Shown here piece by piece: positions 15,956 through 61,300 of a stretch of DNA of 64,000 nt. The first letter of the stretch is position 1. The number at the start of each line of letters is the position of its first letter. This DNA is from Branchiostoma floridae (taxonomy: Eukaryota; Chordata; Leptocardii; Amphioxiformes; Branchiostomatidae): assembly GCF_000003815.2 (NCBI RefSeq), contig NC_049993.1:17699139-17763138 (forward strand), in the 5' to 3' direction. The translations under genes and the position numbers were made by a program. The notes under the pieces are model-generated. The model was given only the letters and a program-made list of their open reading frames with translations. It was not told the origin of the DNA and did no database searches.

Positions 15956-16007
<52 letters not shown>

Positions 16008-16260
16008 AAGGACAGCTCCATGGCGGAGGTAGCCACGATCAGCAGAACTAGCGCGCCCGTCCACCACAGGCTGCGTCTGGGGGGAGAGAACACACACTTG
16101 AGGATGGGAGAGACACAGACAGACAGACAGACAGACAGAATTACAGACAGACAGGACAGTTCCACGGCAGAGGCAGCCACTATCAGCAACACTAGGGCAC
16201 CGGTCCACCACAGGCTGCGTCTGTGGGGAGAGTCAACACACACTCGAGGACAGGAGACGC

Positions 16261-16301
<41 letters not shown>

Positions 16302-31200: not shown

Positions 31201-34200
31201 TTTTGACCAGTTCGGCTGGCAGGTATGAAGAAAATGAGACAAAACAGAAAGCCAGACAATATTAAAAAAAAACGTTCTTTGGGCACAATTCATCAAATTG
31301 TGGGCTTGTCCCAAAACTGCTCAAGATTGCATGTTTGCAAATTCAAAATCTGACATGCAAAATGGATTGGGTACCTGTATTCATGTATCTGTAAGCAACT
31401 GAACATGAAAGGCTATCCCTGATAGTTTAAGCCTCTAATGCAGTGTAGTTTTTCAGACTGGCCCAGTGCCTGTAGACCACACTTTGTGATATGACCTTAA
31501 AATCCTTTGAGATGCTGCTGTCTGGACACATACCCAAAACTTCTAAAGAAGTGATATAAGTGATATGCTCCTGTGTGAACCAATTTGAAAGATACTTCAT
31601 TTTCACCATTTGTATTTGCAATGACAGAGGGTGTCAAATACTACAAGTATGATATATTGTTGTGATTCCTTTGTTGTGAAGTAGCAAAACAACTATTGTT
31701 TTGATCATCACTCATTCACAAGTTTTTGCAGACAATGCTGACTGGAAAAGTGATGCCACTTGGCACAAAAATCTGTGTATTGTCATTAATTTTAGCAAAA
31801 CTAACAAAGAAAATTGGAAAGAAACACAATAAATTTCAAAAGTAGTATAGTGGAGCTGGCTAGGAGTATAGTGGAGGGCCTCCATTATTCTATCCTCTGG
31901 GGAGGACCCTGAAAAGAGATCTAGTTGTAGAACAGTGTGTAACCTACATGTATACTAAACAGGCCAAACCCATGCATCTGCTACCAGATGAAAAGTTGGT
32001 TGCCATACTTGGCACTGAGTGGCCCAGGATTAGTGTACTGTTACAGTCTCACTTATGTCCCAGCAGGCAACTGATAAACCATATCTGCCACATCTGATAA
32101 AGTTGGCAAGAGAAAGGTTTGGCAGGGTGACAAGGGCTCCATGATTTATCCACAGTTATGTTCAGGCTTTGAAATACACATACTTAACTTGCAATTTACA
32201 CATAATTTTCGAGATATGCACGTGAAAATATTCTGAACTTGCAATCTTGCATGTTGAAAATTCCTGGCCGTAAAAAATACTCTCAGGAATTAGACACCCT
32301 ACTCTTAGACAGAACGACATATGGATGTCTGTCTTTTTCCTTCCTTGTTTTTGCCGGTAACTTCCTCCTGTAGCTTCACTAGATGTAATCATAATTCGCC
32401 GATTCAAGCTAGCAATCCTCGTCATGATCGCCGCCTAGTCTTATTTTGCATGAAAATTTTTAAAATTGCGCGTAAAAGTTTTGCCAACTTGCAATTTTGC
32501 ATGTAGCAAAAAAAAAGGATTTCGATACCTGATGTTGCTATTCTTAGATTTGTGGATGGAGGTTAGACATCCTGATACTTCTTAGATTGATTTGACAAAG
32601 AGGAAGTTCTATAATTTCTTCTTATCTGTTATCAAAGGACTGTCTTTATACAAATGTTACAATGACATACATCAGTAATTATAACAATTTGAATATACAT
32701 GTATGTAGTAGTACTAGTAGTAGTAGTACATGTAGTACAGTAGAAGCCAGTTAATTGCACAACGGATTAACGCACACTTCTGTTAACTGCACGGATTCCC
32801 AAAATCCCAAACCAGTGTGGTCTAGCTAGATAATTTCGCATTATTGCACCAGTCGGATAATTGCACAAAATTCACTGGCAAATAGACCGTGCAATTAAGC
32901 GGCCTCTACCATATAGTCTAAGACTATAACCATTTCCTTTGTACGTGTAACTGTAAGTACTAATTTTGCAGCTTGTACTGTTAAGTACAAAGGTAGTGTG
33001 TTACTTTGACTTTGAGCTGCTTTACCCAATTATCTGGTATGCAATACAAACAAATAAACAAACAAACAAACAAGCAAACAACTATTCTCTCCCGCAGAAG
33101 CGGAGCATGCTGTTGACGTACTGCAGAAGATGCAGGAACAGCTGCGTGCTGGCGGGGACAGCAGTGTTGACCTTGCCTCCATCATCCACATGCTGGACAG
33201 CCCGCTGTTCCGACAGATCCTCAACATTCAGGCTTCTGTTAAACAGCTCAAAAAACAGGTAAATAAACAAACAAACAAACATACAGGCCTCCGTCAAACA
33301 GCTCAAGAAACAGGTAAACAAACAGGTAAACAAACAAACAAACATATATTCATCTGTCAAACGGCTAAAAAAACAGGTAGGAACAAGGACAAAAGGTCTA
33401 GAGTCATGAAAAAGTTGTGCTGTAGCTACAGTTACACATTAGAGGGCCAAAAGATATATTTCTTCACCTATCCACCTAACGTCCTTACAATACACCCTTG
33501 GGTTCTTAAGTTATGCTAACCACAAATATTCGTCATCACACATAGACAGAGAGACAGATGGACACATGCCAAAAACAATACTTCTATTTTTCATGAAGAT
33601 AACAAGTTTACCAACAAACTAGTAGTTGCAGTTTCATGGAATACTGTTCGGAGTGTTGAAACTTAAATCACTTTCTTAACATTGCCAAAAAGGTAGGAGC
33701 TCTTGTTGAAAATTACTATGCAATATTGAATGACATTTTTATAGCAAGTTGCTAGGGAGCACAATCTTTCTTTCAAATTTTGCATGTCGAGCTGTCAGAA
33801 GTGGAGAGAAGTAAAAGTAAGATGCCACATTCCATGACCAACATTCGGTGTGTATAAGTTCTATGACAGCTCCTTGACAGCTTTAAAAGTAAAACATCCC
33901 TGTTCCGTGTGTTCCTCTCCCCCAGGTAGAGAACTCCCCTCCGTCTGCTGTACAAGACTTTGAGTTCTCCCCGACCGGTCACCTGGTGATGGCCCCCAAG
34001 GGTAAGGCCAGCAACGGCACTACGGTGGTCGAAGTCAACGGACAGCCAGGTACGTACATCTTGTATTTCATCATCAAACTTAAGGTTGACCCTCCTTCTT
34101 GGTAAACAGATTTGCCTTGTAATACAGATATCTCTTATAAAAGTTTTCATAAGTTTTGGCGGGGATATTCTGATTTCTCTTGCACACCAAGTTTCAAGAA

Positions 34201-37200
34201 GATATAGCAAATTACCATATGATATCTAGTAGACCATTCAAATGAGTCTCTTTAGTATGGCTCGGCCGGAAATCGAACTCACAACCTACTGAATGGAAGG
34301 CAAACACTGTCGGCCATTGCACTTCAGCTGGTGAAACGAGTATATCAGTAACTACATTTTTCCTCTGTCCCTCTGTCCAGCCAAGTCTTTAGTATGGCTT
34401 GTCTGGGGATCAAACTCATGACCTACCGAATGGAAGGCAAACGTTCTACTTCTTGGCCATTACACTGGTTAAACGAGTGTATCAGTAACTACATTTTTCC
34501 TGTGTACTTCTGTCCAGCGGAGGCAGTGGCTGTCCATGGAGCCCCCTCCCTTATGTCAGCTGCACCCCAGATGGGAGAGGAGGACTTCCAGAGGGCCATA
34601 CAGGTGAGAAATTAATTACTTCAGGTACAAGAAGGTGAGATGCAAGGCAATAACAATAGCAAGGCCTGAGTAATGGTCTCTCCAGAGAGCCATGCAGGTA
34701 CCTCAAGTACTGTAAATGCATTTAAGTTAGCAGGGATTTAATTTCGCGGTAGCGGGAAAAGGGACTTTTCGCGGTGGATTTAATTTTGCGGTAACATCAT
34801 AGACTGCAGCCTAATACCATAATAGAAAAATGTTCGCGGTGGATTTAAGTTCGCGGTGAAGTGGTCACCGCGAAAACCGCGAACATTAATCCACCGCGAA
34901 CATTTCTGCATTTACAGTATTTGTTTATTGGTTTGAAATTCACCACACGTGGATGCGATGAGAGAAGACTGTAAACACCTTTGCTGACTCTCACCCCAGC
35001 AAAGTACAATAGATTGAAGTTCAATAAAAGAAACAAAAGGCCATCTGCAATATACTAAAAAAAACAATGACATAGTAATTTCAAGGAAACATATGGTCAG
35101 CAAACTACCATGCTCTTGGTGCCCAACAAGAGGCACACGTACAGAGGTTGTCAGGTATAGTTAAAGAATGATCTTTAAACCAGTTAGCAACAGATTTGAC
35201 AAGCAGATCTTGTATCAGGTACCGCAGGGTGAGAAACTAGGTACCATCTAACAACAGCAAGGCCTAGTAATGGTCTCAATGGTCTGAAATTCTTGAACCA
35301 TAAAATTGTGGAAAATCTGAATCTCATAAATTCTTGTTGTTTATTTTGTTCCTTTTCTCATATAGTCTTATTGTTGCTAAGATCCATAACATAGATAGAG
35401 GAAGTAAATGTCAGAAATATAATAATGAGTGTTGAAATTTGCAAAGAGCACAAGTTATTCTCTTTTCCAATAAAATTAGGAAGCATCTTTTCTCTTCTTG
35501 TACTCTGATAGCACTGTGAAGAAAGGCAAGGACAGTAATTTACTACTTTGTGGGGAGCAAATTTATGCTCTCAAAAATTCTTGTCAGATTTCATTTCAAC
35601 CTGTCTCTAGTTCTCAAAGAAGTTCATGAATAATAGATAACAGCTTTGTAATGGAACTCCCTAGTGGAGACTGTGATTCCGTATGGAAGTACCATCTCTT
35701 TTAGTGTTAGCACTTTAAATAATATGGACTTGATATGTAATAATCGTTATGAAATATCGTTAGTTTGATTGTATATGATATTGATGGATAAGGCAGGCAT
35801 AGGATGAAATAAATGATTAATGATCGGTTTGGAGGAGGGAATAAGGAGTATCCAGGCCAGGAGAAAATTGTAGGGAAGATATGATTAAATATTGATGATA
35901 ATCGTTGTATCATATTCACATTTTGACGAGCTGGTATTCACACGAATGTTGCGGCAAGGGCAGTGAGATTATATAAGGATCTTCTAAAGATGGGTAAAAG
36001 GGTTCGTTCATGCAAAGATAGGCTGAAGTTCACCTTGTGTTTGGTGAAGACCTTAGACAAGGTAGGTTTAGTTATGTTTGAGAGATAGTTTTTAACAGCC
36101 ATGTTGGTGATAGATTTATAACGATGCATGCATGTGTTTTTGGCCTTTTCAAATATTGTTTTGATTTTGAGATTTTTCTTCCTTGCAATAGGCAGTTCTA
36201 TAGAGGTTTACAAAAATGATAAAGACTTTCGTTCATCTTCCTACAATTTTTACAAAACAATTTTTGAAATGGATGTACAACGATGACCCAGTTAAAGAAT
36301 TCAAATAGGTCAACAGTGTCCCCATTAGTTTATGATCTAACCTTCCTGAGCCTATTCCTAAGATATGCTAGCCTTGGTTCTCTCATTCTCTCAAAGTAAA
36401 TGTGTATTAACTGGCTGTTTACAATATTTATTTTATTTATTGGTTTGATTGTTCAGCACACACAGCCAGGGCTGCCCAACTAGCCTGTGGTTATTACAAC
36501 AGGCTAGCTTTGCTGTCAAAGACAATGACAATACAGATAGAATTTGACATGGACAGCATAATACAACATATGCATCAAGGTCCAAATTTTATTCATGTTG
36601 ATCCTTTGCTATAGCTTTATCTTTTGAATAGAAATTAAATTGCCATTGCCTTAGCTGTTCACAATCTATTTTTCAGTTAAGCTGCACATATAGAAATCAC
36701 AACTTGAAAGTTCATCTGTGTTGGTAGAAGTCATTCTGGAACGAGCTGAAGTGTAATTTTCCAACTAAAGAATTGTTCATTCCTCATCAAGGACTGCAGC
36801 TGATTAATTGAAAAGTTAGAAAAGTCCAATTTTTGTGTTGGAAAGTACAGTTCAACTTGTTCCAGAATGTAGAAATCACATTTCTGATACATTTTTGTCT
36901 TTGTACCACCAGGCAGCAGCTCAGGGCAGAGAAGTGGAGAACATCAAGCTGTATAAGCCTGAGACTGGAGGTCTGGGCTTCAGTGTGGTGGGACTGAGGA
37001 GTGAGAACAGGGGAGAGCTGGGCATCTTTGTACAGGACATCCAGCCTGGAGGGGTGGCGGACAGGTACGTTTGTTTGCTTGCTTGTTTGTTTGTTTGTTT
37101 GTTTGTTTATGGTTTAAGTCAGGGCTTCAGTGTGGTGGGACTGAGGAGTGAGAACAGGGGAGAGCTGGGCATCTTTGTACAGGACATCCAGCCTGGAGGG

Positions 37201-40200
37201 GTGGCAGACAGGTACGTTTGTTTGTTTGTTTGTTTGTTTGTTTGTTTGTTTGTTTGTTTGTTTGTTTGTGGTGAAAGTCTGGGCTTCAGTGTGGTGGGGC
37301 TGAGGAGTGAGAACAGGGGAGAGCTGGGCATCTTTGTACAGGACATCCAACCTGGAGGGGTGGCGGACAGGTGTGTTTGTTTGTTTGTTTGTGGTGAAAG
37401 TCTGGGCTTCAGTGTGGTGGGGCTGAGGAGTGAGAACAGGGGAGAGCTGGGCATCTTTGTACAGGACATCCAACCTGGAGGGGTGGCAGACAGGTACGTT
37501 TGTTTGTTTGTTTGTTTGTTTGTTTGTTTGTGGTGAAAGTCAGGGCTTCAGTGTGGTGGGACTGAGGCGTGAGAACAGGGGAGAGCTGGGCATCTTTGTA
37601 CAGGACATCCAGCCTGGAGGGGTAGCAGACAGGTACGTTTGTTTGTTTGTTTGTTTGTTTGTTTGTTTGTTTGTTTATGGTGAGAGTCAGGGCTTCAGTG
37701 TGGTGGGACTGAGGAGTGAGAACAGGGGAGAGCTGGGCATCTTTGTACAGGACATCCAACCTGGAGGGGTGGCAGACAGGTACGTTTGTTTGTTTGTTTG
37801 TTTGTTTGTGGTGAGAGTCAGGGCTTCAGTGTAGTGGGACTGAGGCGTGAGAACAGGGGAGAGCTGGGCATCTTTGTACAGGACATCCAACCTGGAGGGG
37901 TGGCGGACAGGTGTGTGTGTTTGTTTGTTTGTTTGTTTGTTTGTTTGTTTATGGTGAGAGTCAGGGCTTCAGTGTGGTGGGACTGAGGAGTGAGAACAGG
38001 GGAGAGCTGGGCATCTTTGTACAGGACATCCAACCTGGAGGGGTGGCGGACAGGTGTGTGTGTTTGTTTGTTTGTTTGTTTGTGGTGAAAGCCTGGGCTT
38101 CAGTGTGGTGGGGTTATGCAGTGAGAACAGGGGAGAACCTTACAATAACGTGCCCTAGACACGGGATAACAAACCACTGCCCTTTCAACCTCAGAAAAAT
38201 ATGGGAATACCTTTACCTTTAATGTATGGACAAAAGAATATAATGTATATCTTCTCATTCATCTCCCAGGGATGGTCAACTGAAGGAGAGTGACCAGGTC
38301 ACTGTCACTATCCGGTTTAGCGTACGTTGTTCTCTGTCTTGCAAGGGTTGGATGTTGCAGGATGTCATTTAGGATCTCCAGCTGCTTCTTGCTAATATTG
38401 AGAGCTAGCCCTGGTGACAATATCATACTCCATGTGTATTGTCTTGTCTCTCAGGGATGCCCAACTATGAGAGTGACCAACTCCTGACTAATACAGGAAG
38501 CTAGCCCTGCTGACAACATTATACTCTATGTTTCTTGTCTTGTCCCGTAGGGATGGTCGACTGAAGGAAAGTGACCAGATCCTGGCCATTGACCATCAGC
38601 TGCTGGATGCCAGCATCTCCCACCAGGAGGCCATCTCCATACTGCAGAAGGCACATGGCATCGTTGAGCTTGTCGTGGCGCGCGGCGGTATTCCCGAACC
38701 GGACGCCTCCGACAGCAGGGGGCCTTCCAACCTGTCCGAACTCGCTGAGAAGGTAAGATCATCAAAATCCTGAAGCTATTGGTGATTGAATCTTTGAGCT
38801 TCTTTTCTAGCAAACTTACAAAACTAGCCTATAATATGGTGCCAAAAAGCAGTTACTCAAGCAACTGGATATAATTTTAGATACAGTCAGTCAGGCTTTC
38901 CAACATGTTCATACTCACTGAGAAGGTTTGTTTGATTACTTTGAACCTTAATTTATTCATTAAAGCTCAAATCATCCATGAGGGAGGTAGGGATCAGATA
39001 AAATATAAGTTACAGAGATGCAGATTACCTTTAAGCTTTGCTACCTGCAAAATTGCCAAATTAGCCGTAAATTGGATTCGTGTATTTAGACTGAGATGTG
39101 TTTTTGCTAAATATTCAACATCTTTGTGACCATTTACAGTGTGGGTCTTCCTTTTGCTTTAATGTTGCAAGGTGTCTAATAGATAAATCACATTTGTTTT
39201 ACCTGAAATAACAATAATCCATGTGTTTTTCCAGTGATTCAGCAATGACAATGTTTTTTTCTTTTCAAATTTTGCAATTTTCTGCTTGACATTGAAATGT
39301 GTTTACTGTGATTTGCAGAGTCCCAGCGCTTCACTCCCCCCAGAAATGGCAGATGCAGTAAGTTGAACCAATCACAGTTACAATCAATCAGCATGCTCAT
39401 ACAGCAGTTGATCATTTCAGTGATTACTGCTAATCATCCTTTGCAGCAACTTGAAATATTCCTTTCTTGATATGAAATACTGTAAATGCATTAAAGTTCG
39501 CGGGGATTTAATTTCGCGGTTGCGGGAAAATGGACTTTTCGCGGTGGATTTAATTTCGCTGTAGCGCCATGAACTGTAATCTCTTACTGTTATGGAAAAA
39601 TGTTCGCGGTGGTTTTAAATTCGCGGGGAAGCGGCCGCCGCGAAAACCGCGAACATTAATCCACCGCGAAAGTTTCTGCATTTACAGTATCCTTGCATGC
39701 ACCTACCCACTTGGTTAGCACTATCATAATGGTAGAACTGTTCATCATTGTCAGTTTATTCACTCTCAAGTCAAATAAGTCAAGTCGACTTAACTTAGTA
39801 GTTTCCTTACTTCAAGTTGTCTTTCACTTCTGTAGTCAGACTCTATTATTCTCCTCTTTTAGGTACTTATTGTTTATAAGGCCACACCAATGAAGTTGTC
39901 TGGTCCTTAGAAATTTTGTGGTTGCAGAAACCAAAACTAGAAATTTAGAGTAAAAAATTTAGCAAGATGATACAATGAAAACAGAAAGTTGAGAGGAAAA
40001 CTCTACCCTGACTATATTCACTCCCCAAACGTGTGAGCACTGACTCGTTTTCTTATCTTCTTTTCTGCATTACTTCATAAGTCTGAGAAGCAACAGATTG
40101 GTGTGGTTAAATACGTGACTGCATGATGCAAACTTTTAAACTTGTTCCTGATGTGTGCCCCCAGCTCGGTGTGACACGGTGGTCATGTGATATGTCAGGC

Positions 40201-43200
40201 TCAGTTGGAAACACCTTGTGACTTAGTGTAAATGCAGAAATGTTCGCGGTGGATTAATGTTCGCGGTTTTCCCAGTGACCGCTTCACCGCGAACTTAAAA
40301 CCACTGCGAACATTTTTCTATCATGGTATTAGACTGCAGTCTATGGTGTTACCGCGAAATTAAAACCACCGCGAAAAGCCCTTTTCCCCGCTACCGTGAA
40401 ATTAAATCCCCGCGAACTTAAATGCATTTACAGTACTCCCTACATCACTTCTTTCCCTGCCTTAGGTAGCTAGGCTATTTTGCACATTTTTCCTGGATGT
40501 CTGTATGATTTCCTCCGGTGTTGTTCTCTCAGCTCGGAGTGACACAGTGGTCATGTGATGTGTCAGACTCAGTTGGAAACACCCTGTGACTTATTCCCTA
40601 CATTACTTCTTTCCCTGTTGTATGTAGCTAGTAATCTCCAAGCAGATCCTACAGTAGTATACATGTACCTGTAAGATGGTATCAAAAGCTGGCAGAGGAC
40701 TGAAGCCGGCTTAGGAGTGTGTTTCGCTACCGGGGAACATGGCAAATGGACACCTTTTGGCTGACTACACTCCTTGGCCAGTTTGGTACTATTTTATGCC
40801 ATTGTAGGATCTGCTTGGAGATTAGTGACTTACTCCCTACATCACTTCTTTCCCTAGTAGCTAGGCTATTTTGCACATTTTTCCTGGATGTCTGTATAAT
40901 TTCCTCCCGTGTTGTTCCCCAGCTCGGTGTGACACAGTGGTCATGTGATGTGTCACGCTTAGTTGGAAACACCTTGTGACTTATAATCTCCGTCCAAGCA
41001 GATCCTACGGTAGCATAAGATAGTATCAAAAGCTGGCAGAGGAGTGAAGCCGGCCTAGGAGTGTGTTTGGCTACATGGCAAATGGACACCTTTTGGCTAC
41101 CTACACTCCTTGGCCAGTTTGGTACTATTTTATGCCATTGTAGGATCTGCTTGGAGATTAGTGACTTACTCCCTACATCACTTCTTTCCCTAGTAGCTAG
41201 GCTATTTTGCACATTTTTCCTGGATGTCTGTATAATTTCTTCCCGTGTTGTTCCCCCAGCTCGGTGTGACACAGTGGTCGCACGTGGAGATGATCGAGCT
41301 TGTGAACGACGGCCGAGGTCTCGGCTTCGGGATTATCGGCGGGCAGACGAGGGGCATCGAGGTCAAAACCATTGTACCTCAAGGGGTGGCAGACAGGGTG
41401 AGTAGATCAATCACTAACTTTATATGTACTAAACTAAACACTAAGCCAACGAATGCCTTTATTGAAATGTCCAACGGTTCTCTTAGAATGGCTCTGGAAA
41501 AAAGTTGAAATATATACCTGTTCTGAGAGTGACTTTTACGTGTTATTGTCATAGTTTTTGGTGGCATGTAACCCTGTTGACCTGACATTTATGCCGCAGA
41601 AAATTTTTGTGGTTCTGTTTCAAGATTCTGTGAAAGGTAGTGCATAGTCTCTGGCATACATGACACAAATCTTGGTCCTCAGCATCTTACCGCAGGGATT
41701 TGTTTATTTACAAGATATCCTTTAGATTTATGATTAGTTTCCAGGCTATCACTTGCACATTCTCTTCTATCAAGTAATGATGATTTTTTTTATTTATATT
41801 TTTATTCACAAATAACATTACAACACATAAACAAAAGGTGGACCATCCAAACCATATAAATCATATATACAAAGGAAAAGTAACTGTTATGTAAAACATA
41901 AATCCAACAGAAACTAAATTTCCCCACTTCCCATGGTGCTTTGCCATCTTCCCTCTCCTGTTAGCAATTTGACCTTCAACCTTTTCGAAGAAATTAACAT
42001 AATTTATAAATGATTTGAAGTTAACTTTTTTAGATTCTCTGCATTTGTAAATGTACATCATACTACATGACCTTTTTTTTTACCTTTCTTTTCCCAGGAT
42101 GGCCGGTTGAAGCCAGCCGACCACATCCTGCAGATCGGAGACACTCCACTGAAGGGGATGGGGAGTGAGCAGGTCGCTAATGTGCTACGGCAGTCAGGCA
42201 GTCATGTCAGACTTCTCATAGCGCGTGGCAAGCTCAACAACACACAGGCCGCACCTGCAGCTACAAGTGTTAAACAGGCAGAAGAGGTTTGTTTGTTTGT
42301 TTGTTTGTTTGTTGATTGCTGTGTATGAGGAGTGAGTTTTATGGTCAGGCTGCCATGTTAGGTTACTGATCGCACGCGGGAAGCTCAACAACACACAGGC
42401 CACACCTGCAGCAACAAGTGCTAAACAGGCAGAGGAGGTTTGTTTGTTTGTTTGTTTGTTGATTATTGTACTGTATAAGGAGTGAGTTTTATAGTCAGGC
42501 TGCCATGTTAGGCTACTGATTGCTCGTGGCAAACTCAACAACACCCAGGCTGCACTTGCAGCTACAAGTGCTAAACAGGCAGAAGAGGTTTATTTGTTTG
42601 TTTATTTGATTATTGTGTATGAGGAGTGAGTTTTATAGTCAGGCTGCCATGTTAGGCTACTGAACGCTCGCGGGAAGCTAAACAACACACAGGCCACACC
42701 TGAAGCTACAAGTGCTAAACAGGCAAAGTAGGTTTGTTGATAAGAACTGTGTATGAAGAGCAAGTTATCAAGCAATATGAATTAGGCAGCCATGTGAAGT
42801 TTCTCACAACTAATGGCAAGTTTAGAAGTTCTCAAAACCTTGAAGCAATACCTAAAGCAGTGTGCGACTTAACCAGTGTAAACCTGCTGGACAAAGCTGC
42901 TTGGAAGCTGGTGTGACTAGACTAGCCAACTGTTGCCCACCCATGTCAGGGACACAAGCAGCAGTATAATAGAAAAAAAACGGGCTTCTTAACTACATAC
43001 CACTACAGTTTTGTTTGTAACTACAGCTGTGTGTTTCTTTGTATGTTGTTGATTGGATGTAGTGCTAAGACTTAGTGCAGAGATAGAACAATTTCTAGCT
43101 AATCATAATGTATATGAAGTACTGTAATTCACTTTATCTTCACGGTACCAAACTTTCACGGTCTGAGAAAATTGAACTTGTTCTCGGAACTAAATGTTCA

Positions 43201-46200
43201 CTGTCGAGGCAAGTGTGCATGAAAAAAGTCTGTGAATTATTTTTTATCGGTAATGATAAGTTCACGTTACAGTCGTCACCGTGAAAACCGTGAACATAAC
43301 AGTACATTGAAAAAATCAGGAATTACAGTATATGATGATCTTATTCTTCCATTTGCCTCGCAAAGGTGGAGAGCGCACCGAGTGCAGAGATAGAACAGTT
43401 TGAAGCAGAACTCACGAAGGACAGCCAGGGACTGGGCATCACCATAGCTGGATATGTGGGTGAGAAGTCCTCGGGTAAGGCAATAGTTACAATTCTTTTC
43501 ATAATTATATATCTTTTCATGATACAGTCAAACCTGTCTATAGCAGCCACTCAAGGGACTTGAGAAATAAGGCCACTATAGACAGGTGGCCACTATAGAG
43601 AAAATGTTGATCAATTGACCATGAGCAAGCTACACATGATTTCAGTTCCCACCAATCTTTCTCACCAAGTAACATTGTCTCGATCGGTACATTCACCGAC
43701 AAAGACTTGCACTTTAATGCTCAAGGCATGCATACCTTCTGCTACCGCCAAAATGACCCTGTCAGGAACTCCAAATCCTCGCAAAGTACAATTTCAAACT
43801 CGGTGCAGGGTGACATAATGCTGCAGTATGGTTGCACCAGGCAGTGTTTCTGTATCAACGGGACCGGAAATCGTGTGGCCGTGGCCACGTTGGACAGGTG
43901 GTTGCTAAGCCTATTTCTTAATCATTACGAATCCAAGGGACCGACAAAAAGTGGCCACTATGGCCAGTTGGCTGCTATGCAAAGGTGGCCGCTAATACAG
44001 GTTTGACTGTATCGATAACTGGTTTTATTCAGAACATATAAGAGCTGAATTACATGTTATGTACAATAGGTAAAGGGTTAAAAGACAAGTCTTACAAGTC
44101 TAGCATACCTGAAGGGTTAAACCACAGACTGATCCATTTAAAGATTACAATCCAAGCTAAAATGTATGTATTGACAAAACATCTTCCCCCCGCAGAAGAA
44201 CTGTCGGGAATCTTTGTGAAGAGCATCGCGCCGGGAAGTGCAGCAGACAGGGACGGCAGGATAAGGGTTAATGACCAGATCGTGGAGGTGAGCTGTTCAA
44301 TTTCTCCTGTACAATAGATTCAACAGACATGTATTATGAATACAGTAATTGTTTACAGCATCTGTCCTTGTCATTATTCTTAATGAAGAAATCAATGAAT
44401 CCTTACAACTATATACAGTCTGCAACATGGAGTTACAAAATATTTACTCCAACTATTGCTTAACTGGGCTCAAAATACCACCTTAGGTTAGTTAGTGCAG
44501 GTAAAATTGGAGCTGTGCAGGTATTTCTGATGTCTACCTGCACCTAACCTGCACTGGTCCATGTACTTGGTTTTATACATAAAATGTCCAATGATGTTGG
44601 TGTATGTGGTTTGTTATTAGCTGCGTGTTACCATCTATAAAATATAAAAGAAAAAAAAAATGGCAAAGGTTCCTGAACAATTTTAGTATGATCCATACTT
44701 GCTGAGTGGTGCAGGTAAAATTTGTCTGGTTTAGGTATTATTTTCAATGTTATTTCAAGCCCTGCATTTCTTGTTTCCTTGTCAGGTTGATGGTCGTAGC
44801 CTCCAGGGTTTCTCTAACCAGCAGGCTGTAGAAGCCATCCATTCATTCATTTATTCACACATTCTATCAGTCACATCCTCACTAATTCATCTCTTGTTTG
44901 TTGTCCTTGTCAGGTTGATGCCCGGAGCCTGCAGGGATTCTCTAACCAGGCAGTAGCGGCTCTATTTACTCATCTATCTATCCATTCTCTCACTCACTCA
45001 TTCACTCTTTGTTTCCTTGTAAGGTTGATGGTCGCAGCCTGAAAGGCTTCTCTAACCATTCATTCACTTACTAGTAAACTCATTCTCTCAGTCACTCGTT
45101 CTTTTCTTGTTTGTTTTTTCTTACGAGGTTGATGGATGAAATCTGCAGGGTTTGTCTAACCACCAGACAGTGCACATATTTATTCACCAATCTATCTATC
45201 CATCCTTTCTCTCTCACTCATTCCTTCTTTGTTTATTTGCTGTCCAGGTTGATGGCCGTAGCATGCAGTCCTTGGAAGCCATACATCAATTCATCTGTCC
45301 ATTCATTCACACATTCTCTCAGTCCCTCTCTTGCTCATTCATTCCTTGTTTGTTCTCTTCTCAGGTTGATGGCTGTAGTCTGCAGGCCTTGGAAGCCAAA
45401 CATCAATCCATCTGTCCATTAATTCACACATTCTCTCTGTCCCTCTCTTGCTCACTCATTCCTTTGTTGTTTGTTTCCTTGTCAGGTTGATGGCCGTAGC
45501 CTGCAGGGTTTCTCTAACCAGCAGGCAGTGGAAGCCATCTATCCATTCATTCATTCAATCACTCATTTATTCTCTCAGTCACTCACTCGTTCACTCATGT
45601 CTTGTTTGCTGCCCAGGTTGATGGCCGTAGCCTGCAGGGTTTCTCTAACCAGCAGGCAGTGGAAGTCCTACGCAGCACAGGGCAGGTGGTTCAGCTCAAG
45701 CTGGCTCGCTACAAGGACGGGCCCAAGTTCCTACAGCCTTCAGAACGGGGTAGGTTTAGTTGAATGGTTTCTCCTGTCGATTTGACAGATGAGGAGGCAG
45801 ACAGGCTTTTTGCCTGTTTGCCTGACCTGCACATGACTTTTTATGGGGAAGGAGGGGTGTGCAATTCCTTCTCCACCCTCTCGTCTACTGGAGCACTAAG
45901 TCTCACAGGGGCATCTGTATGCAACGTGTGAGGCGGCTCCAGCAGATGCAGCTTTGTTGTTCAGAGTATCCGTCTCCTAGTAGGTATTCCAACGCTACCG
46001 CGAAAACGTTCCACCGCACGGCGATCGGTACATTTCTTACCATCTTCCCACACCCGCGGCACAAAAACTATCCGTTCCTAGAGGCAAAGTTACCCATGAA
46101 AATAAAGCATATAAGTTTCTCTTTCTTGTGATATGTTTGTTTAGTTTGTAAAATGTTCAAGACGCCAGAAATTTGCCGGTGAAAACGGCGCGCCGTGAGC

Positions 46201-49200
46201 GGAACGCCCGGCGTTGCGCGGGACGGGCCCAACACTTCCGCCTGCACACGACCTCTAACCTTGTGTTTAGAGCGCTTGCGCATCGCTGTGTTAGACAGCA
46301 GCAGAATGAAAGTAGTATCATTGCAAAGAGCAGATTAAGGGCTTTAAAATGATACCGGTGACAGTTGTAAACTTTTATTTTTTGCCGGTAAAAATTCCAC
46401 CTGAAGGGATTGATCGATCTTTAATTGTAAAAATCTCCGCAAAAAATTTATTTTTGCCGGTTGTCACCCCTGTCCAAATGACGACAAAAAAATAGGCTAC
46501 GTTTTGATGTAATCGGCATGTCTATTGCATGCACGCCGGCGGATCGCGGAGCTTGTTTTCCTGGCGAGGTCGGCCCGAGCGCGCCGTGTTTGGCCGGCCG
46601 CGCGATCCTGACGCGCCGAAGTTCGGCCGCGCGCCTCTTAAAAATTGAAGTTATGTGACTGAAGCGGCACAAACAGATCCTTTTCGACGCTATGGAGCAG
46701 GAATTTCCAGGTAAAATACTTTGATGCATTTTTAGTGTCTGTAGATTGTAGGTTTGTTTTGGGATGGGGGGCTTTTGTGTCCTCAAGGAAGAAAATGTTT
46801 TCTTTTTTTGTTTAAATTTTTTTGGTCTGTCTATAGACAATGCCAGCAATGCAAAATCATGTCTTTATCCATGTTTTTAAGTCATGAGAGAATGTTGCAG
46901 GTTTAGATTTATTAATCATTTTATTTATTTATTTCTTGTTATGTGAAATTGGCCTTGTGAATCATAAATTTTCTTGCCTTGTTCCAAGTTCAAAATACCA
47001 TGGTGTATTTTTTTTACTTGTTGAACTTGAGGCAACCGTGGCCCCCGGTTAGGGGTCAGCCGGGGAACCTATGCCCAAATTTTTCAAAATAAATAATTAA
47101 TGGCATTTTCAATATCCTCGATATTATTTGTGTGAATCATTTCTTGCCTTGTTCCAAGTCCAAAATACCACAGTGTATTTTTTTTACTTGTTGAACTTGA
47201 GGCAACCGTGGCCCCCGGTTAGGGGTCAGCCGGGGAACCTATGCCCAATTTTTTCAAAACAAATAATTAATGGCATTTTCAATACCCTCATTTGTGTGAA
47301 TCATTTCTTGCCTTGTTCCAAGTCCAAAATACCATGGTGTATTTTTTTACTTGTTGAACTTGAGGCAACCGTGGCCCCCGGTTAGGGGTCAGCCGGGGAA
47401 CCTATGCCCAATTTTTTTTTCAAAATAAGAAATCAATAGCATTTTCAATGTCATTGTTATTATTTGTCAAATCATTTCTTACCTCGTTCCGAGTCCAAAA
47501 TACCAAGTGTATTTTTTCACTTGTGTGGCCACCTGTTAGGGTCAGCCGGGGAAGCTATGCCCAATTAAAAAAGATACTTATGGCATTTTCATTGTGAAGT
47601 AAGCTCGTTACAACCAGATTGCTCAAGTGCTCTTTGTGCCATGTGGCATTTTGTTTGACTTTGTACGTCTGGATAGTTAAGTAAAGATCATAAATCTGCA
47701 GTACTTACCTGCAATATTATATTCTTGTCTCTACAGTTTGGTAATGGCGACCTCCAAGACTTGGTACCCAGGTTCAGTCGTAGAAGATGGTGTAGAAGCA
47801 CTGACACTCACTGACTTACCTTCTTCCATCCGGTTTTGGGAATTTATCTAATCTTAATCTATTTTAACTTCAAATCTTCTTGATGTATTATAAAGAATTC
47901 AGTTACATGCATGTGTCAGTCTGATTCTTTCTTTATAACCACTTTATTACGTCTTAAAAAAGAACTGTATAACTACAAATCACCATAGTGATGGTGTCGG
48001 GTACTTGAGTAGGACATCTTCGCCGCAGATAGATGACCATCATCATTCATCACCATGGTAGACACAATAATAAAACTAAAAGTTTTTAATTGTTTATTAG
48101 GAGGAATATTCTATCTAATCCGGGATGTGGCTGATAAAAGACCAGCAGAGAAAAAACTTGAAGAATGTAGGTTGTAGTACCAATAAGTAGAGCGAGATAC
48201 ACATGTATTGGATGGTGTAGGACAAATGTAAAGTTGACAAGTTAACTAGTTGTGCAGCCAGTTTAACTAAATAAAAGTGTTAAGTTTGTTAAGAAAGCAC
48301 AGAACAGTTAGTGCCACAGGAAATGATAAGTAGGCCTTTTTTTGTGTGCAAAACTTTGTGTACTTTGCATGATACAGGTGATAATTACTGATTATAAGAA
48401 TTATCGGGAAATACATCCAAGAAATCTATGTAACGTTACATTTACAGAAAATAGCCTGTGACCTTGAAAAATGTTTACCTTGTCATGATAAATTCAGTGT
48501 TTACATTGTCTATCTATCATTATTTTATCTCTTCTTATAGTACTAACATCTGTCATGTATTGTGCAAGTGTGAACTTATGCTAATGATGCAGTGTAACAT
48601 TGTGCCTCATCAGATAATGCGAGATGTTCATGCAATCTTACCTTTGACCTTGACCAAGTTGACCTTCTTATTAAAGAAGTTACCATTGTTGACATTCTGT
48701 GGATGTGACATTCTTTGGTAATAGAAAATAACATAATGCTATACATTGTAAAAGTATATTAAGTATGGTACTCGGTCTTAAGTACAGTGCACCGTATAGT
48801 ATACTCACCAGCAAAATACCATAGAACGCAACCAAAAATGTGTGTGTATATACCCAAATTTACTCATTTTCTTATGAAGTACAGATAACATGACTGTTAT
48901 TGTGTAAAAGAACACCAGTTAGTGCTGTTTTATGTGAAATATTGGAAGACATGGTCATTCCTGTCAAGAGATACAGGTGTGTAAACTTTGGAGGAATTTT
49001 CCTTCCCCAGGGGTCAAAGGTCACGCTGCCACCTGAGTAATTTGTTGCAAAATGCATACTTTGACCCTGTGTAAAAACATAATAAAAAGATATTAATGTC
49101 TGGAATCCTGTAGAATATTTCTATGTAGTGCATATTACAAGTAAATAAGATAAAATAAGCTTTTCAGTCTTCACTTACCTTTTTATCACCCCTTAAAAAA

Positions 49201-52200: not shown

Positions 52201-55200
52201 AAGAAGAACGTTGATTATGATTGATTGATTTCACCTGTACATCACATATAGACCTCACACCCAAGGCTGACGAAGGCATCAAGCAGTACTGGCAGGACCA
52301 GGCAGGAGAAGACATGGAGATCGTTGTGGCACACATCTCCAAGTTCCTATCTCTGACAGTAATACAGATGACTGTTTCCGTAATATTACTGTCAGTTAAA
52401 ATCTTTTCCCACCACATGTAGACCTCACACCAGAGGCTGAAGAAGGCATCAAGCAGTACTGGCAGGACCAAGCAGGAGAAGACATGGAGATCGTTGTGGC
52501 GCACATCTCCAAGTTCCTATCTCTGTGATACATATGACTATTTCTGTTAAATAACTGCCAGTTAAACTGATTTTACTCCACTTCTTCACATGTACAGCGT
52601 AGACACCAGAGGCAGAGGAAGAAATTAAACTGTCTTTATCATGAATTGTTTCAAAGAACTTGGTAACCAATTGTGCAAGATGAAAATCAAAGTTTGAAGT
52701 CCTAAAATTACTTTTCTCACCACAAGCAGACCTCACACCAGAGGCTGAAGAAGGCATCAAGCAGTACTGGCAGGACCAGGCAGGAGAAGACATGGAGATC
52801 GTTGTAGCGCACATCTCCAAGTTCCTATCTCTGACTGTAATACAGATGACTGTTTCCGTAATATTACTGTCAGTTAAAATACTTTTACAATACATGTAGA
52901 CCTCACACCAGAGGCTGAAGAAGGCATCAAGCAGTACTGGCAGGACCAGGCAGGAGAAGACATGGAGATCGTTGTAGCGCACATCTCCAAGTTACTATCT
53001 CTGACTGTAATACAGATGACTGTTTCTGTAATATTGCTGTCAGTTAAAATCTTTTCCCACCACATATAGACCTCACACCAGAGGCTGAAGAAGGCATCAA
53101 GCAGTACTGGCAGGACCAGGCAGGGGAAGACATGGAGATCGTTGTAGCGCACATCTCCAAGTTCCTATCTCTATAATATTAATGATAAATCTTTATGATT
53201 TTATAACATCTATACACATGCAGACCTCACACCAGAAGCTGAAGAAGGCATCAAGCAGTACTGGCAGGACCAGGCAGGAGAAGACATGGAGATTGTTGTG
53301 GCACACATCTCCAAGTTCCTCTCTCTGTAATATTAATGATAAATCTTTATGATTTTATATCATCTATACAAATGTAGACCTCACACCAGAAGCTGAAGAA
53401 GGCATCAAACAGTACTGGCAGGACCAGGCAGGGGAAGACATGGAGATCGTTGTGGCGCACATCTCCAAGTTCCGTGAGGGCGGAGGCCTGGGTATCAGTC
53501 TGGAGGGTACCGTGGATGTGGAGGATGGACAAGAGGTCCGTCCGCATCATTACATCAGGTCCATCCTGCCTGATGGACCAGTAGGAGTGGATGGGAAACT
53601 GAAGGGTGGAGATGAACTGTTAGAGGTGAGGTTTCTTTAACCCTTAGAACTTAGAACTTAAGTAGTCATTTTGCTACCAATTCTCTATTGGTTACTGAGT
53701 TATGTACATGTAGCATGGAGAAGGTTTATCCAGTGTAATAAAACACCTAAGGCTTCCAAGGAGATATCCATTAGAAGTCAAATCTGGTCTTCTGCATTCC
53801 TTTACTTGAGTTGACAGAGAAAGTATCACTGTTGGTGATCCTCTCAAAAAATCTCTGCTCAGCTATAACGATCCCCAAGCAATAGGGAGCAAAGGGAGCA
53901 ACATCTGCTGGACAAGGACTCACTTCACTTTTGGCAAATTACTGTGCTCAAGCCCCAACCCCAGTCGGATTCGAACTTCTTGAATGTTCCATTTGAGCAC
54001 TAACAATTTGCCACCTTCCCCACAGGTAAATGGTCACCAGTTGCTTGGTCTGGACCACAGAGAAGTGGTCGGCATCCTGAAGGACCTCCCGACTAACGTG
54101 CGCATCGTCTGCGGGCGCCGACCGGAGCCCGTAGAGCGCCCGCCGGACATCCCCACCATCCGCCCTCTGGATGTGGAGGAGTTGAACAGCAAGAGGATGT
54201 CTTTCACAGGGTCTCCTGATGTGGGGATGATGGCTCGGGCCAGATCTGAGGGGTCCATTCCTCCAGCTGTGGAGTCTGGTACGATTGCTTGACTTTTTGG
54301 CGTAACGTTGAAGTCTAGAACTTGCAATTTAGCCCCACCTATATTGGGTATTGTAAGCTCCTCACAATTCAGGTCCCTGCTGCAAAGAGAGAGTAGTCAG
54401 CCCACTCAATACAAAATGAAAATAACAACAGTTACTGAAATCCGTTGTTAGTTTGTTGGTTGGTTGGTTGGTAGAATATCATCTATAGAAATTTAATCTT
54501 TCATTTTGCCAAGCATTTTGTTCAAGATAGTCTTGAGAAGGTCTTCATAGCATGGGATCAAAGATTTTAAAAATTACCTACCAGAATTACATATGTATGA
54601 GAGGTACCAAGATTTCCACAAGCTAGGTCATACTTAACACACCAGCCACTCAGAGACTATGTCCTACAGGTCATGAAAATATCGAAGATGAATTCCACTT
54701 TGTTATGAAATGTCCTACCTACAACAAAGAGAGAGAAACATTGTTTAAGAATGTTAGAACCAAAACACACTCTCTTACTGGTACACAGATATCTTCCATA
54801 CACTGCTAACATGTTCATCTCATATATCCGTCTACGTAGGTCAGTTTCTTTATACTGTATTCCAAATGCGAGACCAGATCACTCATACACAACTGTACTA
54901 TTATTGATAAAATTTTGTTGTTCTGTATGTAGCCCTGTATGTAGTACATGTACTATTGCCTGTATAGCTACTAGTTGTTGTTGGTTGCCATACATTGTAC
55001 CTTGTGCGATCGTTGAGCAATAAATAAAATTCATTCATACTTATCGTGCCAGGTTTATGTACAGCACTGGTGTTACACAACATATAAAAACACACACAAT
55101 TTTGTTACCACAGAATCCCCCTCCCTGGACAAGAGCAAGTCCCGTTCGCTGGAGCCCCTGAGTCAGCTGGCCATGTGGAGTCCTGACATACAGACTATAG

Positions 55201-55296
55201 AACTGCCTAAGGGGGAGAAGGGACTGGGATTCAGCATTCTGGACTACCAGGTAAGACAGCCATACATGAACATGTCTGTGTGTGCTTGTGTGTATG

Positions 55297-55328
<32 letters not shown>

Positions 55329-58300
55329 AGTGAGATAGCCATGTGGAGTCCTGACATACAGACTATAGAACTGCCCAAGGGGGAGAAGGGACTGGGTTTC
55401 AGCATTCTGGATTACCAGGTTTGTGTTTGTGCTTGTGTTTGTGCTTGTGTGTACGTACATGTATGTATGTGAGTGTGAGCTGGCCATGTGGAGTCCTGAC
55501 ATACAGACTATAGAACTGCCCAAAGGGGAGAAGGGACTGGGATTCAGCATTCTGGATTACCAGGTTGGTATTCTGTCTTCTTGTCTGTTGCAAATGAAAC
55601 ATCTTTGCAACAATAAGTGAAAATGAATGAAATTAATTTTATTGTATAGTCATGTCCTGAAGAGCCAAATACAATGTTGAGAAAATAACTGCAGCAATTT
55701 CCGTGTCCCTCTTACAAACAAAAACCACAGCAAAAGTAACTAGATTTATGGTTTCTTCTTCCCCAGGAATCGAATCCACGATTTCTCAATCTCGAGTCTG
55801 CTAGTCTAACCACCGGGCTGTTTGGCCCCACATCTTAGTGTGCCTAAATCTATAATAACTTTTTCCCCAGGAGGCCAGGACCCATTAAGCCCAAACCAGA
55901 TGGTGATAGTGAGCCGAAGCCTTGCACCTAATCCCCCCAAATGAATTTCAAGCCCTAAACTCAGTCACAATAATCTGTACGTAGTCCACAGGAGCATATT
56001 AAAGATTGATGTACAATAAAAGTTTTTTGTTCATTAATATCCCCAGGACCCATTAAGTGTAACAAGATGAACGCCTGATGCCTGGTGATCGACTCATGTC
56101 CATAAACAACGTCAATTAGTACTAGTGTTAGCCTGATTAAATCTTGCTTATAGCAGTCCCCCAGCATCCCTCTGGCATCGAGGGGCCAGTTACAGCCCTG
56201 TACAGCAGAGTTTGTGTTACACAGACAAGTCTAGTGTTACTTGTTTTGGTTTAAGTTATCTTCTAATATATCCTATTGAATCATTCCCTAGTAGGGGGGG
56301 ACATTAATACAAACTTTTTGAAATACGCATTTTAAAATATGGAGATGATCTATATAAACACAGAAATCACAAAATTTAGGCAATTGTAAAACTCTAACCC
56401 CCCTGTACATACCCCCTGAAGTTTGGATAGCCCCCTCGCCATGTACTTGTGTGACGTTGCTAAGATCTGCAAGCACTGACTACATTACTTCAGTTCTTTT
56501 TGCACATTTTGTGTGATTAAATGATACATTACACTCCAAGATACTTTTCTGTCAGGTTTTGGCTTAATAATCTTGGTTGCCATGGCAACAGGGCAGCAAG
56601 TCTTGGGGCGAATTTCCATTATTTGGCCCAAAACAGAGAAGTCACGGTAGGGCAGTGATTTGACAATTGCTGAGAATAATAAAGAGTACCCAAATAAACT
56701 ACAAGTGTATTAAGCTTCACAAGAATAGTGGTAAAATTTTCGGAAACTAGATGCCAAGGAATTGGGCAACTTCAAAAGGAATCATTGTTTCAAGGTTTCA
56801 TGTGTCGTGAAGTAAGGACAGAAAAGCAACAGTTGACTTATTCCCAAGCTCTCCCCCTGTACATATACATACTATATCTCTCATTGTAAGCAAGATGCCT
56901 GCGATACTGAATTTCAACAATGTTTTATTGGTACATGTATTTATAACAGAATCAAAAGAACCATAGTCAAATTTACACTCATTGTAGGTGGTGTCAATGG
57001 CGTGTTCAAGTACAATTCTAGGTTGATCGCAGATAGGTGTTGCAGATGGATTTTTTGTGGTTATCGGTAGTAACAGTGCTCTGGTATCCTGCATCCTTTA
57101 TTTATTTATTTATCTATTCACATATATTTTGAGAGTATGAGACAGAAAGCACTAATTGCTTACATCAAGCCTTCTACTCAAGAAACATACGCATAAAACA
57201 AGAATACTAAACCACATACATACATAAGTACAGAATGGATAACAGAAAAGTAAATTTAGACAAGACAAAGTTGGTGCTGCATCAATTAGGAGAACCTGCT
57301 TGTGCAATGGATATAAGTATTGACAAAATAAAAAATACTACAGTTTTGTAGATGTGAAAGAGATGTTGATCCTAATAATAGTAAAGAACATAAAGTAGTG
57401 TCGTTGAGGTGATTTAGGTCTACTATTATATTGGAGACAGCCGCTAACAAAGAACTTCTTTGGCTGGTATAGAGTGTGCAGTGTAGGAGATAATGTCCTT
57501 TCCTGCCTTCTCTACTGTACTGTCTAAATAATACAGGTTCTTTTTTCTTTTTCTTTTACCCTTGTAACTTCATATTGGTAATTGTGGTTGCCACTTGGAC
57601 AAAGACACTACAGACTTCTTCGTCTTTCCTTGTCTGTTAAAACCTCTCCTTAGAGATAAACCCGAAGGCTGTATCCTTTACCTGCAGCAACTGGATGCTC
57701 TAAATATCCAGTTGCACATTTGAAAATGCATTTTGGTTGGCGCAACGTAATTCTAAATCCAAGTAACGCAGTGCGCAACCTGAATTTTTTCAGTTGGAAC
57801 ACCACTTTCCACCCACCTACATGCATAAGTATTTATTTCTTGATAGGATAAAACATAAGTTACATGTAGCTACAGGGGTGCCTAATAGGGGTGGGTAACG
57901 GTACAGAAAATCCAGGTCCTGTTCAGGTCCAGAGGATCAGGTCCGGACCTGAACCTGGACCTGATTCAGTATGTGAAAACTTGTGATATTCAAAACAATG
58001 GTCCATTTCGCTACAAGGAAATCTGCTTTGCAGGGTATTTGACTACCAATGGCATTTTAAAATCCTATAAGGCTAACTGCCTCTGTGCGATTGACTGTAA
58101 AAATTGGTAAAAATGACTACAGACTATACTATACTATACTATTATTAAACACTAGTTCACTCTTGTTATTTTAGTCGACGTACAGGTAAGCCTCAAAACG
58201 TGTGAATGCCTGATCATATAATCTATATTCTTTCCAATAGCTCCAACATCCTGTCCACCAAATTTTTTTCAAGTCCGGTTTTCCGGACCGATCCACTACG

Positions 58301-61300
58301 AAAAACCTGTTTTATACCGGCACACCGTCCCAGTACCTACCCTTAGTTACAGTACATGATTTCAAAATTTGTAGAGTAATCACAAAGAAGAGAATCTAAG
58401 TCATAGAATTCTATGTGACCATATGTTTCTATGATAGTGTAGCCCGTTTCGTCCAATTTTTAGTATGGACCAGTCCATTTTTCCATGGGGGTGACTTTGG
58501 AATAGTCCATATTTACATGGGAAATACATTTGGAGGTTTAGATATCCACAATGATCTCTCCTGAAGTCAAATATTGTGCCAAGGATGCCAAAGTACAATT
58601 TCTAAGGCATTAAGCGTGTTTGGTAGTATAGCGTTATACTAGCTCAGTACATAAAAACTTCAGGGGGCATGTACAGGGGGGTTAGCAATTAAAAATTTAC
58701 AAAATTTTTACATTTTCATATTCAGATGGACCGTCTCCATATTTCTAGGTGCGTATTTCATCAAAAACTGCATTTTTGCAAAATAGTGTCCCCCCCTATC
58801 CCTAGGACCCGTTAAGCCCAAACCAGATGGTGATAGTGATCCGAAGCCTTGTCCACGACAGTGTGATGCAACAAGATGGCCGCCTCGTGCCTGGACTCAT
58901 GTCCGTAAACAACGCCAATTAGTACTAGTGTTGGCCTGATTAAATCTTGCTCATAGCAGTCCCCCAGCATCCCACTGGCATGTTACTGCCCTGGACAGCA
59001 GAGTTTGTGTTGTATCTTCTAATATATCCCGTTGAATCATTCCCCAGGACCCGTTGAGCCCAAACCAGATGGTGATAGTGATCCGAAGCCTTGTCCACGG
59101 CGGCGTGGCGCAACAAGATGAGCGCCTCGTGCCTGGACTCATGTCCGTAAACAACGCCAATTCAATCTCGAGCACGCTAACCTGGAAACGGCCGTGCAGG
59201 CGCTGAAGGGAGCTCCGCCCGGCATTGTGCGCATCGGCGTGTCCAAACCACTGCCGGTTCCTGAGTCATTCCAGGACGAAGAACCGGTAAGTCAAGTTGT
59301 CATTTCTATTCTTAACACCATTGAACAAGCCTTAGAGTTAGAAACGGCCGTGCAGGCGCTGAAGGTATCTCCGCCCGGCATCGTGCGCATCGGCGTGTCC
59401 AAACCGCTGCCGGTTCCTGAGTCATTCCAGGATGAAGAACCGGTGAGAAAAGATGTCATTTCCATTTTTACCATCATTTAACAAGCCTCAGGGTCCTTCA
59501 GCAAAGCACCTCACACATTGGGATACTGATATACAGTGAGAAACAGACAGAAAGTTGAAACCCCAAGTTAGTGCGTATCAGGGTGTCCAAACTACTGCCG
59601 GTTCTTGAGTCATTCCAGGACGAAGAACCGGTGAGAAAAATTGTCATTTTTATTTTTAGCATCATTTAACAAGCCTCAGGGTTCTTCAGCAAAGCAACTC
59701 ATGCAACACGTGCAGTGAGAAACAAACAGAAAGTTGAAACCCCAACTTAGTGCGTATCAGTGTGTCCAAACCACTGCCTGTTCCAGAGTCTTCAGGATGA
59801 AGAGCAGGCAAACTCTTACTTCGGTTTGTATTTATTTGTTGTTTGTTTGAGTCGTTATTTATTCATGCTCACGACATCATTACTCAATACACTAGTACAC
59901 ATTGTCAAGCTTTTGCATGTACATACATGTATGTCAGTGACGTCGGCAACATTTTATCATTGTCATCTGCCCCCTTATTTTATGGTGTAATTCCATGGTA
60001 TCATTGTACATAAGACATGGGCTCCTGCCTCACAGTGCTTACATGTACATGGTGTTTATGGTGCGTGATGATACAGTACAATCAAACCTGTACAAGTGAC
60101 TACCTCTACAAAAAAGCACCTGGCCAGTATGACCACCCTGCGGCCCTCGTGACCGTTTATCAGCATACACTAGAACTCATTGGTCCCCTGAGCACAGGTA
60201 AACTCACTTCATAGAACCTATGAAAATTTGGTCACTTGCCATTGACTATGCCCCCCACTGTCAACGGACAGGAACAGACTACCATGTCCAGACTCTCACT
60301 CTCGGATCTGTCTCAGCTTGTCTCTAAATGGTACGCTTGTGCAGTTTTCACCAGTATCTTTATGAGAAATTAACCAACAATTTTACATCAATCACCACTG
60401 CGTACCATTTTGAAATCTTAATTTACATTGTTGTCATTTGCACAAGAGCAAATTCTCACAGGAGTATTTCTGTGCTGGGTGGTCTTCTTGGGCAGGTTTG
60501 ACTGTATTTCCACACATTTATTCATCTCTTCATTCGTTCCCTCCCTCCCTCCCCAGTCCTTCTCACGACCACCCCCCGTGGTCCCCCCTCCCGAGCCCCG
60601 CTCCACACCCCCCCAGTCACCCATCATGGAGGAGACCTCCTCCTTCGCATCTATCACCATGGCGACCGCTACCATAGCGACGGTGACGGAGGATGAGAGC
60701 GACATGATGGAGGCTAAGGAGCTTCAGGTGTCGCAGGTGGAACAGGTAAACAAACAAACAAACAAACAGGTGTGGCGACACAGCAGATGGTTTCACTTTG
60801 ACATAAAATCCTTACTAATCCTTGTCATTGTTGGGTGTCCATTCCATATTGTCATGTCATACTCAAGTGCGAGTAAGCTCCAGCAACTATGTTGATAGAA
60901 TATGGATGTAAACCAAGAGTGGAAAAAGCAAAATGGGTGAGAGCTTTCCAAGATTTTTAAAATTGGATCATGACAAGTCATTTACATGTAGCACAGGAAC
61001 ATAGAAAAAGTTTTTTTCCAGTTTTACAAGCAGAATCATTGATTTGATGTTTGTAACATGAAAATTTCAAAAATTCAATTTTTTTCCTGTACTACTAGTG
61101 TTAGCCTGATTAAATCTCGCTTATAGCCCGTCCAACATCCAACCAGCCTTGAGGGGCCAGTTAACGCCATAGACAGCAGAGTTTGTGTTACATAGACAAG
61201 TCTAGTGTTACTTTATTGTTTTGTCAATGAAATATCATTACCCAAGATACATGTACATGTACAGAGTAAATTTCATGCTTTCTGCTCCACACAGGTCCAA

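Follow-up and report, generated by a model that had tools for sequence, protein, structure and literature searches.

Introduction

Minisatellite-like tandem units that lie across a single exon-intron boundary, at either the 5' or the 3' edge of an exon, are known in amphioxus as 'mirages', on which Canestro et al. (2002) is among the works cited. Published passages describe them in Adh3, with units of 10–72 bp, and in the globin genes BflGb6 and BflGb9, with units of 150–160 bp, and report that splicing is seemingly undisturbed in both cases (PMC3087553). Troponin C and PGBD5 are given as further examples (PMC3902484). One globin gene has 6 units on one of its haplotypes and 3 on the other, and unequal or intra-strand crossing-over is suggested for the globin mirages in the same passages (PMC3087553). 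Here we describe the exon edges of a putative PATJ/MUPP1-like PDZ scaffold gene of Branchiostoma floridae, which begins in a stretch of 64,000 nucleotides (assembly GCF_000003815.2, contig NC_049993.1, forward-strand positions 17,699,139 to 17,763,138; hereafter the window) and continues into the 60 kb 3' of it. These were also fetched, and their window-extended coordinates continue the window numbering.

The arrays of this gene are an extreme case of the known amphioxus mirages. They share the one-boundary geometry and similar unit lengths, with copies spaced mostly about 50–170 bp apart and some further, and in both settings many but not all units keep the splice dinucleotide; here GT is retained in 74 of 76 spare donors and AG in 30 of 30 spare acceptors, or 104 of 106 sites in total. 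They differ in number, the published passages describing a pair of repeat sets in PGBD5 and, for two globin genes, one array apiece, whereas 19 edges are duplicated in this gene. They also differ in that the exon parts of the spare copies are coding-like here, a property that the published mirage passages do not mention. A literature search conducted mostly without subscription papers returned no report of coding-like constraint in mirage copies, and this is apparently a new aspect of them. We consider it reasonably probable, at about 0.6, that the 19 edges carry mirages in which the spare copies exchange sequence with the selected working edge and hence stay coding-like.

Two other systems invite comparison. 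Rogers, and Gao and Lynch in 2009, reportedly described introns created by internal tandem duplications that span AG/GT. There, as at this locus, splice signals are duplicated in tandem inside a gene, but the sequence of this gene, judged without RNA, has no sign of a new intron. Mutually exclusive or cassette tandem exons of the Dscam type are also exon-like tandem copies under coding-like constraint; the copies described here, in contrast, are partial and never complete exons with both splice sites, and at most 38 of 105 could serve as in-frame mini-exons.

Coding-like changes in the spare exon parts

Spare copies were located by self-comparison and by an approximate search that used 24 bases from the end or the start of each exon and allowed up to 6 mismatches. 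One weak spare donor, at exon e5, is counted among the 76 donors and left out of the 105-site sets used in the codon, insertion-deletion (indel) and frame tests. The spare exon parts carry 215 distinct changes, 116 silent and 99 amino-acid-changing, compared with an expectation of 55 silent and 159.7 changing. This silent bias persists under a null that allows transitions only (142.7 changing expected) and under one that allows C/G transitions only (129.8).

The bias extends to changes of different distribution among the copies and is strongest in those that every copy has. Changes common to all copies of an array comprise 13 silent and 5 changing, corresponding to a ratio of changing to silent rates (dN/dS, or omega) of 0.13, and single-copy changes comprise 49 silent and 58 changing, with 77.8 changing expected. 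When the arrays of e10 and e36, which diverge more than any others, are split off, a division made after the data had been seen, single-copy changes in the remaining, less diverged arrays number 35 silent and 26 changing (43.7 changing expected; omega 0.29), and changes present in a subset of copies have an omega of 0.24. Single-copy changes in e10 and e36 themselves are near neutral (14 silent, 32 changing; omega 0.79), and their subset changes remain biased, with 9 silent and 11 changing against 15.0 changing expected. The bias is pronounced in e20 (15 silent, 2 changing) and e12 (8 silent, 3 changing), and pairwise omega ranges by array from 0 to 0.68, being undefined for e23.

Inert copies would be expected to decay equally in their exon and intron parts. 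Instead, mean differences are lower in the exon than in the intron part in 18 of the 19 arrays, and the exon part is free of indels in 17. Some of this exon/intron contrast may be due to the search, which was ungapped and relied on exon likeness, and to simple repeats misaligned in the introns, and we therefore rely on the codon pattern. In the spare acceptors the AG is kept, whereas 114 of 300 cells at intron positions -12 to -3 differ from the working edge. At other loci, the four of ten edge arrays that were clearest by eye gave 23 silent and 23 changing differences, with 33.2 changing expected (p 0.001).

Proposed exchange with the working edge and its alternatives

Under the reading that we favor, gene conversion and unequal crossover would, after duplication, continue to move sequence between the units and the working edge. 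A harmful change would be purged on reaching the working position, leaving the spare exon parts coding-like and their GT or AG intact. Splicing would be expected to skip most spares, since an exon is completed only at the edge closest to the intact one. We simulated arrays in a population with selection acting solely on the unit that adjoins the exon. When exon parts could be converted between any two units, the omegas for shared, subset and single-copy changes were 0.09, 0.31 and 0.60 at one rate and 0.01, 0.06 and 0.24 at another, and these two runs roughly bracket the 0.13, 0.24 and 0.29 observed in the less diverged arrays. Unequal crossover alone gave a single-copy omega of at least 0.86, and a model of inert copies with crossover only was rejected, its silent bias being too weak for the single-copy changes. 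Because the conversion runs roughly enclose the observed omegas and crossover alone does not, we infer that exchange between spare and working copies is frequent; repeated multi-unit blocks in the e31 and e35 arrays indicate that it is also recent. Earlier simulations, which counted pairs with the working unit, did not separate the models, and their omegas are unused. Conversion by spliced complementary DNA (cDNA) was also considered and set aside, since GT and AG, which are absent from cDNA, are kept as well.

Several points weigh against exchange. The simulated rates and the restriction of conversion tracts to the exon part were our own choice, and whole-unit conversion was simulated with the working unit as donor only, giving omegas of 0.02, 0.03 and 0.15. 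The observed omega of 0.13 for shared changes lies slightly above both conversion runs (0.09 and 0.01), and silent bias is absent from the e22 array (3 silent, 9 changing). Copies were found through their likeness to the working edge, so that decayed ones are missed and decay is underrated, and the non-independence of changes between related copies makes the binomial p values too small. Exchange was not directly seen, there being no second full match to a 2.4-kb piece of the locus among the best 40 of 1746 candidates. In the published passages on globin mirages, concerted evolution operates within clusters and the units at cluster boundaries are excluded from homogenisation (PMC3087553), which lends no favor to ready exchange with a unit at the edge.

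It is conceivable, although we hold the view tentatively and at somewhat less than even odds, that a working exon edge is one member of a pool, exchange keeping the whole array coding-like and the spares forming a reservoir that renews the edges. Silent bias in exon-like DNA, which in several arrays is untranslatable in frame, would mark conversion between spare and working edges, and such copies caution against reading a dN/dS below 1 in exon-like DNA as proof of use. The gene provides 19 parallel natural experiments in exon-edge duplication and in splice choice among near-identical sites.

The spares might instead be used in some messages, as alternative donors, acceptors or mini-exons, and be selected as coding sequence. 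Silent bias, exon parts without indels in 17 of 19 arrays and the retention of GT and AG are all consistent with such use. An open in-frame mini-exon is possible for the 38 of 105 copies mentioned above, including all 11 of e35, all 7 of e4 and all 5 of e24, in a search that accepted any AG or GT near the seam within a liberal window and had no chance control. Use of the spares as extended exons is mostly impossible, only 10 of 105 spare sites giving an open in-frame extension. Furthermore, the copies of e20 (5), e12 (6) and e31 (24) fit neither extension nor mini-exon, and e20 and e12 are nevertheless among the most silent-biased arrays; stop-creating changes occur in 6 of the 19 arrays. We regard selection on used spares as unlikely.

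Plain neutral tandem duplication, with inert copies whose seeming constraint reflects only the history of the working exon and the search by which they were located, also strikes us as quite unlikely. The geometry requires nothing more than such duplication, single-copy changes are near neutral in the two most diverged arrays, and arrays sampled in other genes meet coding edges at the chance rate. Against this stand the single-copy changes of the less diverged arrays, where 35 silent changes accompany 26 changing ones when 43.7 changing are expected, and the simulation of inert copies without conversion, which gave a single-copy omega of at least 0.81. An assembly artefact, through collapsed or expanded repeats or merged haplotypes, would fit the frame break in one exon at the point where an array ends and has a published parallel in one mirage misassembled in the draft genome of that time (PMC3087553), but we consider it highly improbable, given that the copies differ mutually by many substitutions, that arrays stand at 19 edges and that similar structures at other amphioxus loci are described as backed by trace data, reverse-transcription PCR or resequencing (PMC3087553, PMC3902484).

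Enrichment at splice edges in this gene and elsewhere

Between 33 and 118 kb, 18 of the 26 arrays found by self-BLAST lie on splice edges, compared with 2.8–3.7 expected and a maximum of 13 in 200,000 draws, in a window that was chosen for its striking look, a selection to be allowed for. For the null, intervals matched to the arrays in unit or total length were placed independently and at random, and those inside an exon or covering a whole one were discarded. The script counted 19; a 1-base touch at e3 and an array at the stop codon were removed, and e35, which had been merged with e34, was added. The small e1 array is not included in the 26. An earlier null of circular shifts (17 of 26 against 4.4 expected, p 0.002) was replaced, since moving all arrays jointly inflates the spread.

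Other loci gave a different result. In a kinesin sample of 20 stretches of 10 kb each, 7 of the 27 arrays lie across a coding edge (5.5 expected); a second sample, of 20 stretches each 2 kb long with matches to chaperonin, tRNA-synthetase and myosin, gave 3 such arrays out of 8 (2.2 expected). At coding-score cut-offs of 8, 10 and 12, the kinesin counts are 8, 7 and 7 of 27, with 6.2, 5.5 and 4.5 expected; by eye, a few more arrays, in stretches L019, L022 and L039, touch weak coding segments below the cut-off. Away from splice edges, array density is similar, with 8 of the 26 arrays in 85 kb here and 20 of the 27 in the 200 kb of kinesin stretches.

Counted by exon, partial edge copies occur at 17 of 38 exons in this gene and at 4 of 119 in the other genes sampled, an imperfectly matched comparison in which the other exons are known only as domain matches. 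The script listed 18 exons here, of which 17 are genuine, e34 having entered through a cross-match with the e35 array; the Fisher probability of 7e-10 uses 18. When the test was shifted inward by 15 bases, it listed 15 of the 38 exons of this gene, one of them through the stop-codon array. Two kinesin matches were dropped as being spare copies themselves (75 of 77 left), and matches that run over several exons were kept.

Elsewhere, then, edge arrays are about as common as chance predicts, and this gene stands out as an outlier. The first-pass annotation of the window had called repeated edge duplication unusual for a gene, which these counts bear out; an excess of edge duplication over chance in other genes was not seen in our small sample, and by the criterion set in that annotation this tells against a general rule. 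In one kinesin stretch (L023:7870-8513) the 3' end of a coding-like exon is repeated downstream in 12 spare copies, with (GT)n between them.

Microsatellites and the origin of the arrays

A microsatellite lies within the first 60 intron bases at 7 of 10 duplicated donors and at 2 of 27 other donors (p 0.0003), and five of the seven are (GTTT)n. At duplicated acceptors there is a microsatellite in 0 of 9 cases, compared with 2 of 29 other acceptors. The (GT)n of kinesin stretch L023 follows the donor, the same donor-side pattern. A mechanism based on boundary microsatellites, as proposed in the first-pass annotation, accordingly holds up at donors and finds nothing in its favor at acceptors. 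The association supports slippage-prone sequence for the donor side only. As its anatomy shows, each array started as a short local duplication across an exon edge, and the donor-side arrays were probably helped by slippage-prone microsatellites adjoining the donor.

Host gene and exon model

We call the gene a PATJ/MUPP1-like PDZ scaffold from its domain and chain matches. A domain search predicts an L27_2 domain at the N-terminus, barely above the cut-off, and PDZ domains; the L27 matches solved PATJ chains, and the best matches of the third PDZ are discs-large and MUPP1/InaD-like chains. Same-strand PDZ matches and coding segments continue about 54 kb beyond the window, to a stop codon at about 117.8 kb. 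By reading frame and splice signals we placed 38 exons, 18 of them within the window; e26, a coding segment near 85.4 kb, was omitted as uncertain. Exons e1 to e14 join into a single open frame of 747 amino acids, which supports the exon edges used, and the joins of e16–e18 and e19–e25 are likewise open. The e27–e39 join is not, having at least 10 stops in each frame. In this last third of the model exons are missing or edges are wrong, and its counts rest on single exons.

Arrays within the window

All ten places within the window at which tandem copies had been claimed proved real, the earlier text having counted them as nine edges. Together they hold 35 spare splice sites, each with its GT or AG; a 36th is the weak donor copy after PDZ1b (e5), with 5 mismatches. 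Whole-exon duplication was found for none of the 38 exons, again as claimed. All features below are on the plus strand.

The first exon, e1 (33098–33258), encodes the L27 domain, with the L27_2 and PATJ L27 matches given above, and has its working donor at 33259. Its donor-side array (33223–33376) has 2 spare donors, at +55 and +118, and (AAAC)n in the unit. The donor-side array of e4 (PDZ1a, exon 36913–37064) spans 36971–38136 and has 7 spare donors, with 94 exon bases per unit and (GTTT)n; that of e7 (PDZ2b, exon 42098–42286) spans 42192–42738 and has 3 spare donors, with 94–95 exon bases per unit and (GTTT)n. The array of e14 (PDZ5a, exon 55114–55250) extends over 55159–55572 with 2 spare donors.

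On the acceptor side, e5 (PDZ1b, exon 38551–38752) has one copy (38270–38584) with its spare acceptor at 38270, and an additional, more diverged repeat (77%) at 38392–38486. Three spare acceptors precede e6 (PDZ2a, exon 41260–41397; array 40154–41279), and seven, strongly diverged, precede e10 (PDZ3c, exon 45617–45749; array 44765–45665). Upstream of e12 (PDZ4a, exon 53378–53625) we found 6 spare acceptors in 52215–53473, with 94–96 exon bases per unit, and the spacing suggests one more, undetected unit.

Exon e15 (PDZ5b, 59048–59286) is duplicated at both edges. Its acceptor-side copies (55875–59162) include 2 spare acceptors, at about 55879 and 58806, which are not contiguous; what had been described as one array at 55868–58925 is two separate spare acceptors with other DNA between. 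Its donor-side array (59185–59811) has 2 spare donors, at +156 and +344, and a degenerate copy near +523. The claim that one full exon stays intact in every case fails here, as 59048–59286 lacks an open frame; by inspection the break is near 59163, where the exon part of the acceptor copy ends. The break could be a real allele, a scar of exchange or an assembly error.

Two arrays lie in introns. One, with a unit of about 170 bp (46956–47591), is confined to the intron and provides a contrast case. The other, with two copies of a 137-bp unit (34249–34518), reaches the e3 acceptor and copies at most 1 exon base.

Arrays downstream of the window and other repeats

Nine further edges are duplicated beyond the window. 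Spare donors number 5 at e20, 18 at e22, 24 at e31, 1 at e32 and 11 at e35, the e31 array being the largest at any one edge; spare acceptors number 1 at e23, 5 at e24, 2 at e32 and 3 at e36. In the e31 array (window-extended 92986–95714) a multi-unit pattern is repeated 966 bp apart, and in the e35 array (103690–105865) two stretches of 540 bp, 730 bp apart, share 99.8% identity. The last coding exon also has a tandem array (117710–118145), whose units contain the final part of the reading frame and the DNA beyond it but no splice edge.

Upstream of the gene, an array at 15811–16622 overlaps a coding-like segment on the minus strand, hydrophobic and signal-peptide-like, and is possibly an edge array of a neighboring gene. 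A dispersed repeat of about 400 bp at 54635–55038 has at least 39 other copies with 84–91% identity among the best 40 of 1746 candidates. An element of about 217 bp is present in three copies with 86–89% identity, at 29970–30178, 34705–34920 and 39475–39690.

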